A stretch of 64,000 nt of DNA from an uncultured Spirochaetia bacterium (GTDB lineage Bacteria; Spirochaetota; Brachyspiria; Brachyspirales; Brachyspiraceae): NCBI GenBank assembly GCA_947040495.1, contig CAMRBQ010000001.1, forward strand, positions 1-64,000. The letters run 5' to 3'. Below, piece by piece: positions 46,029 to 53,693 of the stretch (within the stretch, counting starts at the first letter, position 1; the number at the start of each line of letters is the position of its first letter). The notes beneath the pieces were generated by a model. The model was given only the letters and a program-made list of their open reading frames with translations, had not been told where the DNA came from and searched no databases. The position numbers and the translations under genes were made by a program.

Positions 46029-46715
46029 TCATTTCAATTTTTCTATTTCTTTTTTTGATAGCTTTGTAATTTTTATTATTTCTTCTATATCATAATTCAT
46101 AGATAACATTTCTTTTGCTATCTCTATCGCCTTATTCTTTTCTCCGTCAAGTTTATAGTCTTGTTTTTCTTTATCCAAAACATCTTTAACATCATCCACT
46201 AATTTATAACTTAAATCTTGCTTGAAAAAATCCATATAGCCCGACACCAAAAAACTATAGTAAATTGATTCTTTACTTTCTAAAGACAAACGGGAAAGTA
46301 TTATATGGTCGAGTACATTAATATTTAAATATTGCGACACATGAGAAAGCTTATTTGTAAAATCAATATCAAATTGTGAAGGCTCTGGTTTTTTTCTACT
46401 TGTATGATTATGAGCCACGACAATATTTGTTGCCTTCGATTGAACGGCTATACTAAAAACATCGGTCATCGGAACTTTCACAATATTTTGACTGCCCAAA
46501 GCGACTAAGTACAGGCAAACAGAATATCCATCATTATCCATCCCCATTATCCAAAAATGCTCTTTGCCATATAAATCTTTATGTTCTGATTTGAAAAAAT
46601 GAAGGAAGGCTCTATAGTAATCTTCTACTGTATTAATTTTTATAGATTTTAATTTGAAATGTTTAATGGTTCTAACTTCCATTTTTTTAACTTCAGTTGT
46701 TTTTTTGCTCGCCAT
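46029..46715 (-). CDS. RadC-like JAB/MPN-domain protein with an Rpn-like C-terminal tail
   Basis: The central part (residues about 35-160) resembles the RadC JAB domain: FWIMGMDNDGYSVCLYLVALGS, then the metal motif AHNHTSRKKPEPSQFD (H-x-H with S-x-x-D spacing) and LDHIILS. The C-terminal 40 residues (KAIEIAKEMLSMNYDIEEIIKITKLSKKEIEKL) resemble the tail of Rpn/PD-(D/E)XK transposase-family proteins rather than any RadC. The start is ATG at 46715 after AAAGGTG. RadC-type proteins are often cargo of mobile DNA, and a role in DNA repair is not established. The gene is enclosed by 23-bp inverted repeat pairs. Confidence 0.72.
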   Translation of the reverse strand: MASKKTTEVKKMEVRTIKHFKLKSIKINTVEDYYRAFLHFFKSEHKDLYGKEHFWIMGMDNDGYSVCLYLVALGSQNIVKVPMTDVFSIAVQSKATNIVVAHNHTSRKKPEPSQFDIDFTNKLSHVSQYLNINVLDHIILSRLSLESKESIYYSFLVSGYMDFFKQDLSYKLVDDVKDVLDKEKQDYKLDGEKNKAIEIAKEMLSMNYDIEEIIKITKLSKKEIEKLK

Positions 46716-46845
46716 AGAACACACCTTTATAATTTTTTATGATTTTTTATTATATACAATATTTTATTCTTTTCCACTACTGCTTAGGCTTTAGTATTAT
46801 ATATTAATAGATATATTTAAATGTTATTATTATGCATTTTTTAAT

Positions 46846-46927: not shown

Positions 46928-47980
46928 TCAGCGAACTTTTTTTAAGAGTTTGGTTATGAGATTGGCATCTTCTTTAACAAGCGTAGGATATATCGGTATA
47001 GATACAGACTTTAAGAAAGCATCTTCTGAATTTGGGAAATCATTTTTGTCAAGGTCGAGATATTGATGAAGCGGCTTATATATAGGCCTAGTAACATCAA
47101 CACCATGCCTAGCAAACATATCTATTATTTCATTTATATTCATAGAGCCATTTGCCTTACATACATAGCGATAATTTGACGGCAGTTCACTATCATGTAA
47201 AACATGTTTTGAAAGCGAAGATTCCATAATCGCTGTATCATAAAATGAGGCAATATCATTTCTTACGGTAATCATTCTATCAAGATTTTTCATCTCTTCA
47301 ATACCAATAGCAGCCTGTAAATCTGTTGGATAATAATTAAATCTCTGTATGAAATCATCTTTTTTATCATAATGACGTATATCACGTATAGCTTCAATAC
47401 CCTTTTTATTTGTAAGTATCATCCCACCAGCACCACCACTTGTAATCATCCGAGTAGCGGACAATGAGAAATAAGCATAATCACCATATTCGCCAATTTT
47501 TTTATCTTTATATATCGCCCCAAGACTATGGCTTGCATCTTCAATAATAGGTATTTTAATATCAGCAAGTTCATCTATTAAAGTAACATTGCCAAACATA
47601 TGTGATACTATTATAGCCTTAGTGTTTTCATTAATTTTATCTATAACCAAATCCATATCCATTTGATATGAATCCTCTGTAATATCAACGAGAACAGGCT
47701 TTGCTTTAAACATACTAATAACTTGCAAGGGAGAGCTATTAAGATAAGAGCTTAATATAATTTCATCACCTTCTTTAATACCAAGATGATTTAGTATAAG
47801 ATATAATGCAGCAGTACCACTGTTAACAAATACAGAAGAATATGACTTGCCATAATAATTTGCAAAGGTGCGTTCAAATTCATAAATTATATCACCAGTT
47901 GCAAGTTTATCGCTAATCATAACAGTTAGAGCGACTTCAAGGTCTTTTTTTCTTATCGTTGGTCTAGAATGAGAAATCAT
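46928..47980 (-). CDS. DegT/DnrJ-family aminotransferase fold, PLP lysine replaced by Arg
   Basis: This 350-residue fold-type I protein has the DegT layout: VNSGTAALYLILNHLGIKEGDEIILSSYL, IPIIEDASHSLGAIYKDKKIGEYGDYAYFSLS and the C-terminal sugar-substrate part with RPIYKPLHQYLD. The residue that normally forms the Schiff base with PLP (Lys in ATKNITTGEGG-like segments) is Arg in SLSATRMITSGGAGG. The codon is CGG, at least two changes from any Lys codon. Such proteins usually make amino-deoxy sugars for surface glycans. Without Lys, transamination is not expected, although Lys-less relatives such as ColD (His) do other PLP chemistry. It is 9 bp downstream of accC. Confidence 0.85.
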   Translation of the reverse strand: MISHSRPTIRKKDLEVALTVMISDKLATGDIIYEFERTFANYYGKSYSSVFVNSGTAALYLILNHLGIKEGDEIILSSYLNSSPLQVISMFKAKPVLVDITEDSYQMDMDLVIDKINENTKAIIVSHMFGNVTLIDELADIKIPIIEDASHSLGAIYKDKKIGEYGDYAYFSLSATRMITSGGAGGMILTNKKGIEAIRDIRHYDKKDDFIQRFNYYPTDLQAAIGIEEMKNLDRMITVRNDIASFYDTAIMESSLSKHVLHDSELPSNYRYVCKANGSMNINEIIDMFARHGVDVTRPIYKPLHQYLDLDKNDFPNSEDAFLKSVSIPIYPTLVKEDANLITKLLKKVR

Positions 47981-47989
47981 ATAATATTT

Positions 47990-49342
47990 TTATAGATCCT
48001 TAACATCTACATTTTCTAAAAATTTGGTTGTTATCTTGCCTTCTTTCATTGTTGGATGCATAAGTATTTTCTGATGGAAACCAACAGTCGTAGGCACACC
48101 AAGTATCATAGTTTCATCGAGAACCCTATACATTCGCTGTATGGCCTCGCTTCTATTTTCTCCCCATACAATAATTTTTGCAATAAGAGAATCATAATTA
48201 CTTGGAATTTTATAATCGGTATATATATGGCTATCGACACGAACACCAAAACCACCAGGGAAATGTAGCCTTTCGATTTTACCGGGCGTTGGGACAAAGC
48301 CATTCTCCCAATCTTCAGCATTGATACGACATTCTATAGCATGCCCTTTCATTTCTATATCATGCTGCTTTATGGATAATTTTTCACCCATAGCAACTAA
48401 TATTTGCATTTTTACAATATCGATACCTGTCACCATTTCAGTTACAGGATGTTCAACTTGTACACGTGTGTTCATTTCCATAAAATAAAAACTGCCATCT
48501 TCGTCAAGCAAAAATTCAATAGTCCCCGCACCAGCATAATTAACACTCTTCGCACCACGAACAGCAGCATCACCCATCTTTTTTCTAAGGCTTGCTGTAA
48601 CAACAGGCGAAGGCGATTCTTCTAATAATTTTTGATGACGTCTCTGTAGCGAACAATCACGCTCACCAAGATATAAAACATGACCATAATTATCAGCCAT
48701 TATCTGTACTTCAATATGTCTTGGATTTTCTATATATTTTTCCATATATAGATTTGGATTATTAAATGATACACTAGCCTCATTTTGTGCCAGTGGAAAA
48801 TTAGTTTTCACCTCATTTTCATTCCTACATATACGCATGCCCTTTCCACCACCGCCCGCAGTAGCCTTTAATATTACAGGATAGCCAACACGAGAAGCAC
48901 CTTTCACAGCCTCATCCACATCCTTTAATATATCAGTACCGGGGATAATAGGGACACCCGCCTCTTTCATAGTTGCACGGGCATTAGCCTTATCACCCAT
49001 TCTAGTAATGACATCCGACTTTGGACCTATAAATGTAATATTATTATTTTCGCATATATCTGCAAATGTAGCATTCTCCGACAAAAAACCATATCCCGGA
49101 TGTATAGCATCAGCACCAGAAATCTCACATGCTGCTATTATACGTGGTATATTTAAATAACTTTCTTTTGCAGGGGCAGGACCTATGCATACATCTTCAT
49201 CGGCAAATAATGTATGTAGAGAATCCTCATCCGCTTGAGAATGTACGGCTACTGTTTGTATGCCCAAATCTTTACAAGCACGGATAACCCTTAAAGCTAT
49301 CTCGCCTCTATTTGCTATAAGTATCTTTTTTATATTCAACAT
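47990..49342 (-). CDS. accC: Biotin carboxylase (AccC)
   Basis: AccC carboxylates biotin on BCCP using ATP and bicarbonate. The 450-residue protein is complete: IANRGEIALRVIRACKDLGI, IHPGYGFLSEN, the ATP-grasp loop ATAGGGGKGMRI, RDCSLQRRHQKLLEESPSP and YFMEMNTRVQVEHPVTEMV. All catalytic residues I can check look normal. It follows accB by 2 bp and precedes degT by 9 bp. The carboxyltransferase genes accA and accD are not in the window. Its adjacent carrier lacks the biotin lysine, so its true partner is uncertain. Confidence 0.96.
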   Translation of the reverse strand: MLNIKKILIANRGEIALRVIRACKDLGIQTVAVHSQADEDSLHTLFADEDVCIGPAPAKESYLNIPRIIAACEISGADAIHPGYGFLSENATFADICENNNITFIGPKSDVITRMGDKANARATMKEAGVPIIPGTDILKDVDEAVKGASRVGYPVILKATAGGGGKGMRICRNENEVKTNFPLAQNEASVSFNNPNLYMEKYIENPRHIEVQIMADNYGHVLYLGERDCSLQRRHQKLLEESPSPVVTASLRKKMGDAAVRGAKSVNYAGAGTIEFLLDEDGSFYFMEMNTRVQVEHPVTEMVTGIDIVKMQILVAMGEKLSIKQHDIEMKGHAIECRINAEDWENGFVPTPGKIERLHFPGGFGVRVDSHIYTDYKIPSNYDSLIAKIIVWGENRSEAIQRMYRVLDETMILGVPTTVGFHQKILMHPTMKEGKITTKFLENVDVKDL

Positions 49343-49344
49343 AA

Positions 49345-49815
49345 TTATTTCAACCTAAATAATGGCTGGGCAAACTCTACAGCCTGACCATCCTCTACAA
49401 GTATCTCTGTAATTTTTCCGTCATACTCGCTTTTTAATTCATACAAAATCCCAGTAGATTTTATATAAGCAAGTATCTGCCCTTTTTTTATCTCATCTCT
49501 AAGTTTAACAAGTATTTGACTTTTATCATCAGCCGAACGTAAAAATATACCAACCTCTGGGCTTAGGATATCATTATAATTTATATCAGCCTCTTCAAGC
49601 ATATCTTTTTGCTCTGTTGCTTTCTCATCGATAGAAGTTTTGACAACATTATCAAATATCTGCTCTACTTTTTTGGCTATAGATACAGCACTCATATCAC
49701 GTACAATATGTATACCACAATTATCATTTTCGATAACAAGCTCTTCTACACTACTCTCAGATAAGGCATGAAGTATTTTATCTACTTGTTTTGGTTCAAT
49801 ACTCTTATTTTCCAT
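49345..49815 (-). CDS. accB: Acetyl-CoA carboxylase carrier protein (BCCP) without the biotin lysine
   Basis: The 156-residue protein has the BCCP plan: an N-terminal helix (MENKSIEPKQVDKILHALSESSVEELVIE), a linker and a C-terminal lipoyl/biotinyl barrel (SPEVGIFLRSADDKSQILVKLRDEIKKG to VEFAQPLFRLK). The barrel aligns without gaps to E. coli BCCP, but the EAMKM biotin motif is replaced by KSTGI in AYIKSTGILYELKSE. The position of the biotinylated Lys is Gly, and both flanking Met are lost. The rest of the fold (GQAVEF, DGKITEILVEDG) is well kept, which argues against simple decay. It is the second gene of rpmE-accB-accC-degT, with 20 bp and 2 bp gaps. Confidence 0.88.
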   Translation of the reverse strand: MENKSIEPKQVDKILHALSESSVEELVIENDNCGIHIVRDMSAVSIAKKVEQIFDNVVKTSIDEKATEQKDMLEEADINYNDILSPEVGIFLRSADDKSQILVKLRDEIKKGQILAYIKSTGILYELKSEYDGKITEILVEDGQAVEFAQPLFRLK

Positions 49816-50338: not shown

Positions 50339-51853
50339 TTACTTTACTTTTATATATCTTGTTGTTTGCTTTTTCCTTGTAGACTCAAGCATTTCTAAAC
50401 CAGTATCATAATCAAGCTGCCTAGGCTCATATTCTTCATTTTCTCTTTGTCTTGTATAGCCATCATTTAGCCAAACGGGTTGTTTATCTTTTCGCCATGC
50501 TCTTGCCGCCCATTGATAACCCCTATAGAGATCCCTAGTTTTATTCATATTTTCTAATAAAGCATCATGCAATTTCTCTCTTTGTTTAGAATAAGCCTCA
50601 TCATTAATCAAGTTTTTCATTTCAAATGGGTCATTTTCCATATCATAAAACTCATCTGTATCAAGCAAATTAATAACAAGTTTATATTTTTCTGTTATAG
50701 CTGCCCTCATCATTTGAAGCCCACCAAAACCGTCATGGTCGACTTCATACCTTGTAAACTCAGAAAAAATGATATCATTAATTTTTGTATTAGTATCATA
50801 AATTTGTGAAAGTATGCTTTTACCATCCAACCACTTAACAATAGGAAGATCCATATAATCCAAAATAGTTGGAACAATATCTATATGAGATGCAGGCTCT
50901 GTTATAATTTTAGCTTTTTCACCACCTTTTATTATTAACGGAATATTTGCGACCTCTTTATACGCTGTTGCATTTTTTGCTCGCAGTTTATGTGCCCCCA
51001 ACATGTCGCCATGGTCTGAAGTAAAAATAACCAAGGCATTCGGTATGGTTTCAGATATTTTATCGAGAACTCTACCAATTAAATCATCAACGAAAGAGTT
51101 GCAACCTAAAAATAGAGACAAAGTTTCTGAGGGTTTATTAATTTCATTTTTTGTTAATTTTATACTATCCCCTGCCCAAAGTTTTTGCATCAATGGCTTG
51201 TTTTCAAGATTGTCATCAAAGTTTGGATTATCAGGGAATTTAAAATCAGAATACATAGTATTATATGGAGCAGGGCAAAGGCTCGGATCATGAGGCTCAT
51301 CATAAGAGAGTGCTAAAAAGAAGTCATCATCTTTACTTTTTTCAATATAGTCAATAGCCCTCTTAGTACATCGATAACCATAGGTAAATTCTTCGCTAAA
51401 GTTTTCATCATAAGAAGTCTTTTCATCCCTAGAACGTAGTCTATCCTCATCACTTAATTCTTCTAGATACATTCTCATATCATACCAATAATCTTTATCC
51501 CAACCTTGAGGACAAACACCATTGCCAAAATAATCACCGCCATCTAAATGCCATTTCCCAATGTATCCAGATTTTATACCTTTGTCTGATAATCTCTGAC
51601 CTATAGTTTTTATATTATCACCCAAAGCAATGGAGTTTGTAACCATTCCATTTGAATGAGGAAATAAGCCTGTAAAAATCGCAGAACGAGCTGGGCCACA
51701 AACAGGCTGGGCACAATAAGCATTTTCATATTTAATCCCCTCACCCGCCAATTTGTCAAGATTTGGTGTTATCATATCCTTATTTCCATAACAACCTAAC
51801 ATGTCCTTTCTTGTAGTATCAGTCATTATAAAAACAATTTGTTTTTTATTCAT
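50339..51853 (-). CDS. Second cytoplasmic Cys-type sulfatase
   Basis: This is a 504-residue type I sulfatase. It has IVFIMTDTTRKDMLGCYG at the metal site, the formylglycine motif CGPAR in QPVCGPARSAIFTG, SGYIGKWHLDGG, IFTSDHGDMLGAH and FYDMENDPFEMKNLIND. No signal peptide is present, so it acts in the cytoplasm. It is the last gene of a run with two sodium-solute symporters, 25 bp after the second, under a divergent GntR-type regulator. Maturation needs the anSME encoded about 8 kb away. It differs clearly from the sulfatase at 36.9 kb, so the substrates probably differ. Confidence 0.9.
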   Translation of the reverse strand: MNKKQIVFIMTDTTRKDMLGCYGNKDMITPNLDKLAGEGIKYENAYCAQPVCGPARSAIFTGLFPHSNGMVTNSIALGDNIKTIGQRLSDKGIKSGYIGKWHLDGGDYFGNGVCPQGWDKDYWYDMRMYLEELSDEDRLRSRDEKTSYDENFSEEFTYGYRCTKRAIDYIEKSKDDDFFLALSYDEPHDPSLCPAPYNTMYSDFKFPDNPNFDDNLENKPLMQKLWAGDSIKLTKNEINKPSETLSLFLGCNSFVDDLIGRVLDKISETIPNALVIFTSDHGDMLGAHKLRAKNATAYKEVANIPLIIKGGEKAKIITEPASHIDIVPTILDYMDLPIVKWLDGKSILSQIYDTNTKINDIIFSEFTRYEVDHDGFGGLQMMRAAITEKYKLVINLLDTDEFYDMENDPFEMKNLINDEAYSKQREKLHDALLENMNKTRDLYRGYQWAARAWRKDKQPVWLNDGYTRQRENEEYEPRQLDYDTGLEMLESTRKKQTTRYIKVK

Positions 51854-51878: not shown

Positions 51879-53579
51879 TTATTCAATATTTTTCTTTTTT
51901 GGAAGAAAAATTTTAAAAGCCACGATAGAAATAACTAGAAATATAGAAGTTATTATAGCAAACTTTGGATATACTTCACCAAATGAAAGCCCTATAAGAC
52001 CAATAGGTGATAACAGAACATAGAAATAAATTAGAAATGACACAACTATGGCAGAAAAAGAATTAGCATATTTCCAAGGAATTGCAGGGACAACATTTTT
52101 TTCACTTTGTTTGTATGCTTGTTTCATTGGAGCAATTTTTCCAATCACAAACATTATGGTTACACATAATATAAACAGTATTCCTAAAAGATGTAAAAAA
52201 TTTATAGGTATTTTTAATACATATTGAACTAATCCATATATAACCATAAATGTGAAAAGTGAAATTTTTGCAGCAATCGGGGGGATTTTTTTTGAAAAGA
52301 ATCCAACTAGAACAATAACCAATGTTGGAACATTAAAAAATCCCATAAATCGCTTCATAAATATAAAAAACCCTTCAGGCGTATCTCCAAAATATGGAGC
52401 AATGAAAATAGCACAAAGACCCACAAATAAAGCAAATATTTTACCAACTTTAACTAAATTTTGATCCCCTATCGCAGGTTTAAAAATAGGTTTGTAAATA
52501 TTCAAGCAAAATAATGTAGAAGCCGAGTTGAGTGCTGAGTTAAATGTACTTAGTACAGCACCAAAAATAACAGCACCAAAAAAACCTAATAAAGGTGCAG
52601 GAAGAACTTGATTGACTAACATAGGATATGCCATATCAGGATGTGCAACATTGCCTGAGTTGAGAGCAAAAACTATTAGACCTGGCACAGACAAAGCAGC
52701 AGGGACTAAAATAATTAAAAAACCCGCATACAAAGCACCTTTTTGACCTTCAGCTAAAGATTTTGCACCTAAAGCCCTTTGTACTATAACTTGATTAGTA
52801 CACCAATAAAAAGTATTTATTAAAAGCATTCCTGTAAAAATTCCAGAAAAAGGAACAGGACTATCAGCACTGCCAATTACATTTGTCTTGTCAGGGAATT
52901 TCACAACAAGTGTTTCTACCCCTGTAAAAAAATTCCCATCTCCAAGTATAGAAAATCCGATAATTGGAATAAGAAGCCCGCCCAAAACTAATCCAATACC
53001 ATTAATTGTATCAGAAATGGCAACAGCTTTTAATCCACCAAATATAGCATATATTCCGCCAATTATACCAATAGCCCAGATACTTATAATAAGAGCAGCA
53101 GGTTCACTTACATTAAGTATTTTACTTACATCAAAAAGGGCATTTATAGCAATCGCCCCAGAGTATAATACCGTAGGAAGCATTATGCCAATAAGACTTA
53201 TCAAAAATAAAACAGCCACAATATTTCTTGTCGCTTTATCATATCTTTCTTCTAGAAATTCAGGAACAGTAGTAAAACCACTTTTTAGATATCTCGGCAA
53301 AAAATATAAAGCCATAAAAACCAATGATACACTAGCTGTAACAGACCAAGCAACAACTGAAAGCCCACCACTAAATGCCTGACTATTCATCCCTATCAAT
53401 TGCTCTGTAGAAATGCTTGTAAGTAAAAGAGAACCCGCTATTACACCCCCAGTCAAACTTCGCCCACCCAAAAAATAACCTGTGTTCGATTTTAAATCTT
53501 CTTTTTTAGTAAATTTCCAAGAAATGAATGCTACTAAAAGAGTAAAAAATATAAATGTTACTATAGCTAAGATATTCAT
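51879..53579 (-). CDS. Sodium:solute symporter (SSS family), copy 1
   Basis: The 566-residue inner-membrane protein has about 13-14 segments, with the SSS signatures GYFLGGRSLTGGVIAGSLLLTSISTEQLIGMNSQAF and YAIFGGLKAVAISDTINGIG, and the WCTNQVIVQRALGAKSLAEGQKG block typical of the sugar (SglT-like) branch. The start at 53579 is preferred, as it matches the paralogue and has GGGGG upstream. A longer in-frame start at 53642 is less likely. It is paralogous to the next gene, and the two proteins are visibly similar along their length. Confidence 0.9.
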   Translation of the reverse strand: MNILAIVTFIFFTLLVAFISWKFTKKEDLKSNTGYFLGGRSLTGGVIAGSLLLTSISTEQLIGMNSQAFSGGLSVVAWSVTASVSLVFMALYFLPRYLKSGFTTVPEFLEERYDKATRNIVAVLFLISLIGIMLPTVLYSGAIAINALFDVSKILNVSEPAALIISIWAIGIIGGIYAIFGGLKAVAISDTINGIGLVLGGLLIPIIGFSILGDGNFFTGVETLVVKFPDKTNVIGSADSPVPFSGIFTGMLLINTFYWCTNQVIVQRALGAKSLAEGQKGALYAGFLIILVPAALSVPGLIVFALNSGNVAHPDMAYPMLVNQVLPAPLLGFFGAVIFGAVLSTFNSALNSASTLFCLNIYKPIFKPAIGDQNLVKVGKIFALFVGLCAIFIAPYFGDTPEGFFIFMKRFMGFFNVPTLVIVLVGFFSKKIPPIAAKISLFTFMVIYGLVQYVLKIPINFLHLLGILFILCVTIMFVIGKIAPMKQAYKQSEKNVVPAIPWKYANSFSAIVVSFLIYFYVLLSPIGLIGLSFGEVYPKFAIITSIFLVISIVAFKIFLPKKKNIE

Positions 53580-53693
53580 AGAACAACCCCCAATTATTGG
53601 TTTAATATTAAAAAAATTTACAAGCCCAAAATAATACAACAATTTTTAGTTGAAATATAATTTACAAGTAAAATCTATTAATTCATCAAATAT

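Follow-up and report, generated by a model that had tools for sequence, protein, structure and literature searches.

A BCCP paralogue without the biotinyl lysine, encoded beside accC in spirochaetes, as a probable counterpart of plant BADC

Results

The accB* gene lies directly upstream of accC

The window analysed here is the whole 64,000-nucleotide stretch of an uncultured Spirochaetia bacterium, whose genome assembly comprises 2.55 Mb in 165 contigs and is 97% complete. On its minus strand, at 49345-49815, an open reading frame, supported by profile matches, encodes a 156-aa BCCP paralogue that lacks the biotinyl lysine, hereafter accB*. Two bases downstream starts accC (47990..49342, minus strand), which codes for biotin carboxylase, scored 729.8 bits on TIGR00514 (cut-off 626.5) and retained the usual active-site motifs; it was the sole copy found in the genome and, as the sequence-only reading of this DNA had stated, it is intact. 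Nine bases after accC follows a DegT/DnrJ/EryC1 aminotransferase gene (46928..47980, minus strand; PF01041, 224 bits), which runs in the same direction as accC and is probably not part of the system; no close relative of it adjoined accC in the other accB*-accC loci that were read. Upstream of accB*, at a distance of 20 bases, an rpmE-like gene for ribosomal protein L31 (49836..50039, minus strand) was identified by eye from the sequence. The surroundings also include, on the same strand, a RadC-like JAB domain protein (PF04002) with an additional C-terminal region (46029-46724) and adjacent sulfatase-like and sodium:solute symporter-like genes (50339-51853 and 51879-53642, by eye), a pair perhaps devoted to the use of sulfated sugars.

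The AccB* protein of the window matched the Biotin_lipoyl profile PF00364 with 42.8 bits (cut-off 22.1), and its match to the BCCP equivalog TIGR00531 spanned the whole protein, with a score of 76.7 bits that fell below the curated cut-off of 115.2. The sequence-only reading had described a barrel that aligns to BCCP without gaps and in which EAMKM is replaced by KSTGI, the lysine by glycine, with both methionines lost. The alignment to E. coli BCCP (1a6x) was indeed gap-free from residue 76 to 153, and it placed KSTGI at residues 119-123 (49447..49461, minus strand), so that the biotinyl motif E-[AS]-M-K-[MLVI] was absent and the biotin lysine site was occupied by Gly122 (codon GGG, 49450-49452). 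No methionine remains in KSTGI, although this point required a refinement, because the residue preceding the lysine site, Thr in the window, is usually Leu or Met in relatives. Judged from its sequence, AccB* cannot be biotinylated at the usual site. The further statement that the rest of the fold is intact held for the fold and failed for the thumb, which retained its length and lost its conserved Tyr and Pro columns. The Glu147-Phe148 turn was present (49372..49377, minus strand).

An AlphaFold2 single-chain model of AccB* predicted an N-terminal domain (residues 8-38) made of a helix (8-19) and a hairpin (25-30 and 33-38), a disordered linker (45-75) and a barrel (81-155), with pLDDT values of 92-97 over residues 81-156. 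Superposition of the model gave 0.7-0.8 Å against E. coli BCCP and 0.8 Å against Arabidopsis BCCP1, and a profile built from 22 AccB* sequences aligned to the entire 4hr7 chain B, N-terminal domain included. Both the BCCP barrel fold and the N-terminal helix-hairpin domain were present in AccB*.

The window genome encodes a complete biotin-dependent enzyme

The sequence-only reading had suggested searching the genome for a second BCCP with AMKM, for accA and accD and for BirA, and all of them were found. A canonical AccB with EAMKM (VEAMKMM) was located on contig 39 (G000:C39:14139-14597), with unrelated genes on both sides and a TIGR00531 score of 113.8 bits, just below the cut-off of 115.2, which ruled out that the genome lacks a canonical carrier. 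accD and accA scored above their curated cut-offs, the biotin ligase scored over the birA cut-off and the accC copy number was exactly one. Since AccA, AccD, BirA, AccC and a canonical AccB are all encoded, this gene content indicates that a biotin-dependent acetyl-CoA carboxylase is probably functional and that accB* is an extra subunit gene. As far as can be told without biochemistry, this supports the proposal that the protein could serve AccC as scaffold or inhibitory subunit while another gene supplies the true BCCP. The other suggestion made at that time, a complex that no longer uses biotin, found no support, since all biotin parts are present together with one AccC.

Contig 7 of the same genome encodes a 564-aa XdhC/CoxI-like protein (L004:109-1803, by eye), adjoining a MobA-like nucleotidyltransferase, whose C-terminal stretch weakly matched the biotinyl/lipoyl fold (21.8 bits). 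Seven genomes of the window genome's family (G001, G002, G003, G005, G009, G013 and G017) each contained one Carboxyl_trans protein (515-527 aa), which was of the decarboxylase/PCC type, and neither AccA- nor AccD-like matches were obtained in these seven, so that acetyl-CoA carboxylase seems to be absent from the nearest relatives of the window genome.

AccB* is a conserved family within the phylum

We surveyed 60 relatives first and then 295 genomes of the phylum, many of them drafts, and read out the loci. Lysine-less homologues were present in 22 genomes, from 16 genera and 15 family-level groups, with Gly at the lysine site in 18 of them, Asn in two, His in one and Gln in one. The change is thus conserved across related spirochaetes, a comparison that the sequence-only reading had proposed, and its occurrence in 21 other genomes within the same clade excludes chance or sequencing error. 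accB* was directly upstream of accC in at least 19 of the 22 genomes (18 by scan, plus G040, counted as linked because its accC match begins 30 bases beyond accB*); in G070, G074 and G090, which make up one genus, the two genes did not adjoin in the sequence available. The classical gene order is efp-accB-accC, and efp was immediately upstream of accB* in 14 of the 22, L31 taking this position in the window. A lysine-bearing canonical AccB, the partner AccB, was encoded elsewhere in 21 of the 22 genomes. No canonical AccB was found in G042 (a draft 85% complete), and G052 (83% complete) had only a short carrier, beside a second accC; accC was single in 20 of the 22. The accB* and canonical AccB genes were unlinked, so their co-expression is not shown.

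No AccB* was found outside the phylum in 24 genomes of other phyla and 78 planctomycete genomes, a small sample without Cyanobacteria. Where AccB was present, these genomes had one full-length copy each, G323 having in addition one partial, broken copy, and the biotinyl lysine was present in 55 out of 55 carriers read outside the phylum. A lysine-less match in a Bacilli genome (L079) resembled an M23 peptidase and was dropped, as were the HlyD-like matches in G033 and G045. G051 (L139:6321-8348) and G039 (L140:4168-6060) encode an additional carrier in which all ancestral features are retained: a BCCP with EAMKMF and a VEF turn, fused to an alpha subunit resembling that of pyruvate carboxylase or oxaloacetate decarboxylase.

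Phylogenetic trees were based on about 165 columns, with SH-aLRT support only. In a tree built without the two trait motifs, a single branch (SH-aLRT 87) separated all 22 AccB* proteins from the other sequences, and a second branch (SH-aLRT 99) did so for the 19 partner AccBs of that tree set; an earlier tree that included poor rows required 2 and 3 changes. The data neither established nor rejected a single origin for both clades (p-AU 0.49), and the simplest reading is one ancient duplication followed by joint inheritance of AccB* and its partner. In pairs of related genomes, dN/dS of the AccB* barrel was about 0.03-0.07, comparable to the 0.01-0.12 of canonical AccB; these values are rough, with dS near saturation. 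By these sequence estimates AccB* is under strong purifying selection, and G89, F91, E147 and Y/F148 were nearly invariant.

AccB* and its partner have lost complementary features

Column conservation was defined on a reference made of spirochaete AccBs from genomes without AccB* and of AccBs from other phyla, in which 35 barrel columns were conserved (by residue class, at least 85%). Of these, 16 were kept in both paralogues, 13 were lost only in AccB*, five only in the partner AccB and one in both. The losses confined to AccB* included the pre-barrel Pro, the thumb Tyr, a Gly (column 269), a Cys (column 279), E-A-x-K and the post-motif Asn, and those confined to the partner included alignment columns 310 and 311, which correspond to E147 and F148 whether the residues are counted in E. 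coli BCCP or in the window protein. Specifically, E147-[YF]148 was present in 21 of 22 AccB* proteins. None of the 21 stand-alone partners had it, against 41 of the 46 AccBs from spirochaete genomes without detected AccB* (Fisher P = 5e-13, only indicative, as the genomes are related), and nearly every AccB read from other phyla carried it too. One of the five exceptions, G050, is a draft 81% complete whose AccB lies inside the partner clade, so the assembly has probably missed its AccB*. The partner AccB retained the lysine and the thumb, even in G032, G039 and G051, where the thumb of AccB* was deleted. E. coli BCCP is disrupted when its thumb Tyr and Pro are mutated (Cronan 2001, as cited in PMC11926652).

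Discussion

The sequence-only reading did not extend to the conservation of the family, to the complementary loss of E147-[YF]148 from the partner AccB or to the resemblance to plant BADC. We consider that AccB* probably is a non-biotinylated assembly or regulatory subunit of acetyl-CoA carboxylase that would work like plant BADC, an interpretation resting on sequences, a structural model and analogy, in which binding and activity are inferred. That it is a non-catalytic subunit is likewise likely, in the absence of data on binding, abundance or activity. AccB* and AccB would co-assemble on AccC through their N-terminal hairpins. In the fused BC-BCCP of Chloroflexus, the hairpins of four BCCPs build an eight-stranded barrel and thereby link two BC dimers (PMC11077971), and the hairpins shared by AccB and AccB* make a mixed assembly on AccC plausible, by inference. 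The two proteins may also pair through their barrels, AccB supplying biotin and the thumb and AccB* supplying the Glu147-[Tyr/Phe]148 turn, which would dock to AccC or AccB. AccB* would then be an assembly subunit, or glue, and the AccB*:AccB ratio could serve to tune the enzyme as well, a proposal already made for plant BADC. We lean towards a role in promoting assembly rather than only inhibiting, without being able to distinguish glue from regulator.

Other explanations account for part of these observations. AccB* could mainly be an inhibitor that occupies the place of BCCP on AccC and lowers its activity, the AccB*/AccB ratio setting fatty-acid output; of two competing views of plant BADC, one takes this form (cited in PMC11926652 and PMC7712654), and it would suit the retained N-terminal BCCP domain. 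We regard it as unlikely, because accB* is encoded with accC and is present wherever the split AccB occurs, and because the partner has lost E147-[YF]148, a change that a pure competitor leaves unexplained and that suggests dependence on AccB* and not competition. In E. coli, AccB autoregulates accBC, and AccB* might have kept this role as a dedicated regulator of accC expression, given that it stays at the accBC position with its N-terminal domain while the catalytic copy lies elsewhere. A purely N-terminal regulator would, however, have no need of the C-terminal barrel and of E147-[YF]148, both under selection, which makes this explanation very improbable.

Nor is there much room for the attachment of biotin, or of some other group, to another lysine, or for service in a biotin-independent complex. 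Lys119 lies three residues from the site in the window, but its column varies in relatives (R, E, K, D, I, L, N, Q or V), and the full biotin-dependent set of the window genome speaks against the biotin-independent complex, so that we give this explanation hardly any credence. Decay after duplication, an error of sequencing or an artefact of assembly, which the loss of the lysine and of most motif residues might suggest, is refuted by the recurrence of the same loss within one clade of 22 genomes, at a conserved position, and by dN/dS of 0.03-0.07, with G89, F91, E147 and Y/F148 hardly varying; relatives with a normal motif and further decay at accB*, which would have turned the gene into an error or a pseudogene, were not encountered.

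Within the favoured role of AccB* as an assembly or regulatory subunit, a more specific arrangement can be put forward tentatively, and we hold it to be possible without being likely: the ancestral BCCP homodimer would have split into a heterodimer, with the AccB thumb docked onto the AccB* turn Glu147-[Tyr/Phe]148, and a similar split would have arisen independently in plants as BCCP and BADC. Such complementary halves would account for each paralogue losing what the other supplies. In plants, BADC contacts the thumb of BCCP1, and S190 of Arabidopsis BCCP1 shifts upon BADC3 binding, more so with BC, along with the thumb residue K147 (PMC11926652). BCCP1 carries biotin on Lys165, its strand beta7 spans G186-V189 and beta8 starts from L195; from these strand positions and equal spacing we infer that S190 occupies the position of E. 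coli E147. If so, in plants and spirochaetes alike the carrier that has a non-biotinylated partner lacks Glu147.

Automatic annotation will call the accB* genes accB and may count AccB* as the biotin carrier. A bacterial counterpart of BADC could also assign a function to the E147-[YF]148 turn, which is kept by nearly all bacterial AccBs read and lost where a partner holds it.

Among known systems, AccB* equals the bacterial AccB (TIGR00531; E. coli 4hr7 and 1bdo) in length, N-terminal helix-hairpin, linker and barrel, and shares with it the efp-accB-accC position and the E147-[YF]148 turn, whereas it lacks the biotinyl lysine, EAMKM and the thumb Tyr and Pro and scores under the curated cut-off. 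The actinobacterial AccE-type small subunit is a helical protein and not a BCCP paralogue. Subunits of this type are comparable to AccB* in being non-catalytic and in promoting assembly, as mentioned in PMC11926652 and PMC3199775. The Chloroflexus BC-BCCP (BC1, PMC11077971) offers in its hairpin barrel a plausible model for the mixing of AccB* and AccB hairpins on AccC; unlike AccB*, it is biotinylated and fused to BC, and no non-biotinylated partner is described for it.

The closest parallel lies in the plastid enzyme of plants, where BADC proteins are BCCP paralogues without the biotinylation motif that have been called unique to plants (PMC11926652, 2025). No bacterial protein of BADC type was reported in the open-access literature that we searched, which is not proof of absence. 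Like AccB*, BADC lacks the motif and shares its genome with a BC subunit and a BCCP of the biotinylated type. In Brassica, a BCCP-like class orthologous to the non-biotinylated Arabidopsis proteins has the motif CYIEQLGGQF, with Lys replaced by Gly (PMC9578262), the same residue as in 18 of the 22 AccB* proteins. Over the 17 positions outside the motif, however, the 23-residue Brassica fragment was identical to AccB* at a mean of 4.6 and to spirochaete canonical AccB at 5.3-5.4; on this one short fragment, AccB* resembles the plant class no more than ordinary AccB does, which gives no indication of shared descent and leaves convergence as the default. AccB* differs from BADC in being bacterial and encoded beside accC, and the binding and assembly roles shown for BADC are only inferred for AccB*. 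The role of BADC is itself disputed, as glue for BC-BCCP assembly or as inhibitor (PMC11926652 and PMC7712654), and a bacterial counterpart, small enough for expression in E. coli, would make this question directly testable. Lysine-less BCCP subunits are a known kind in plants, of which AccB* would represent a variant in bacteria.
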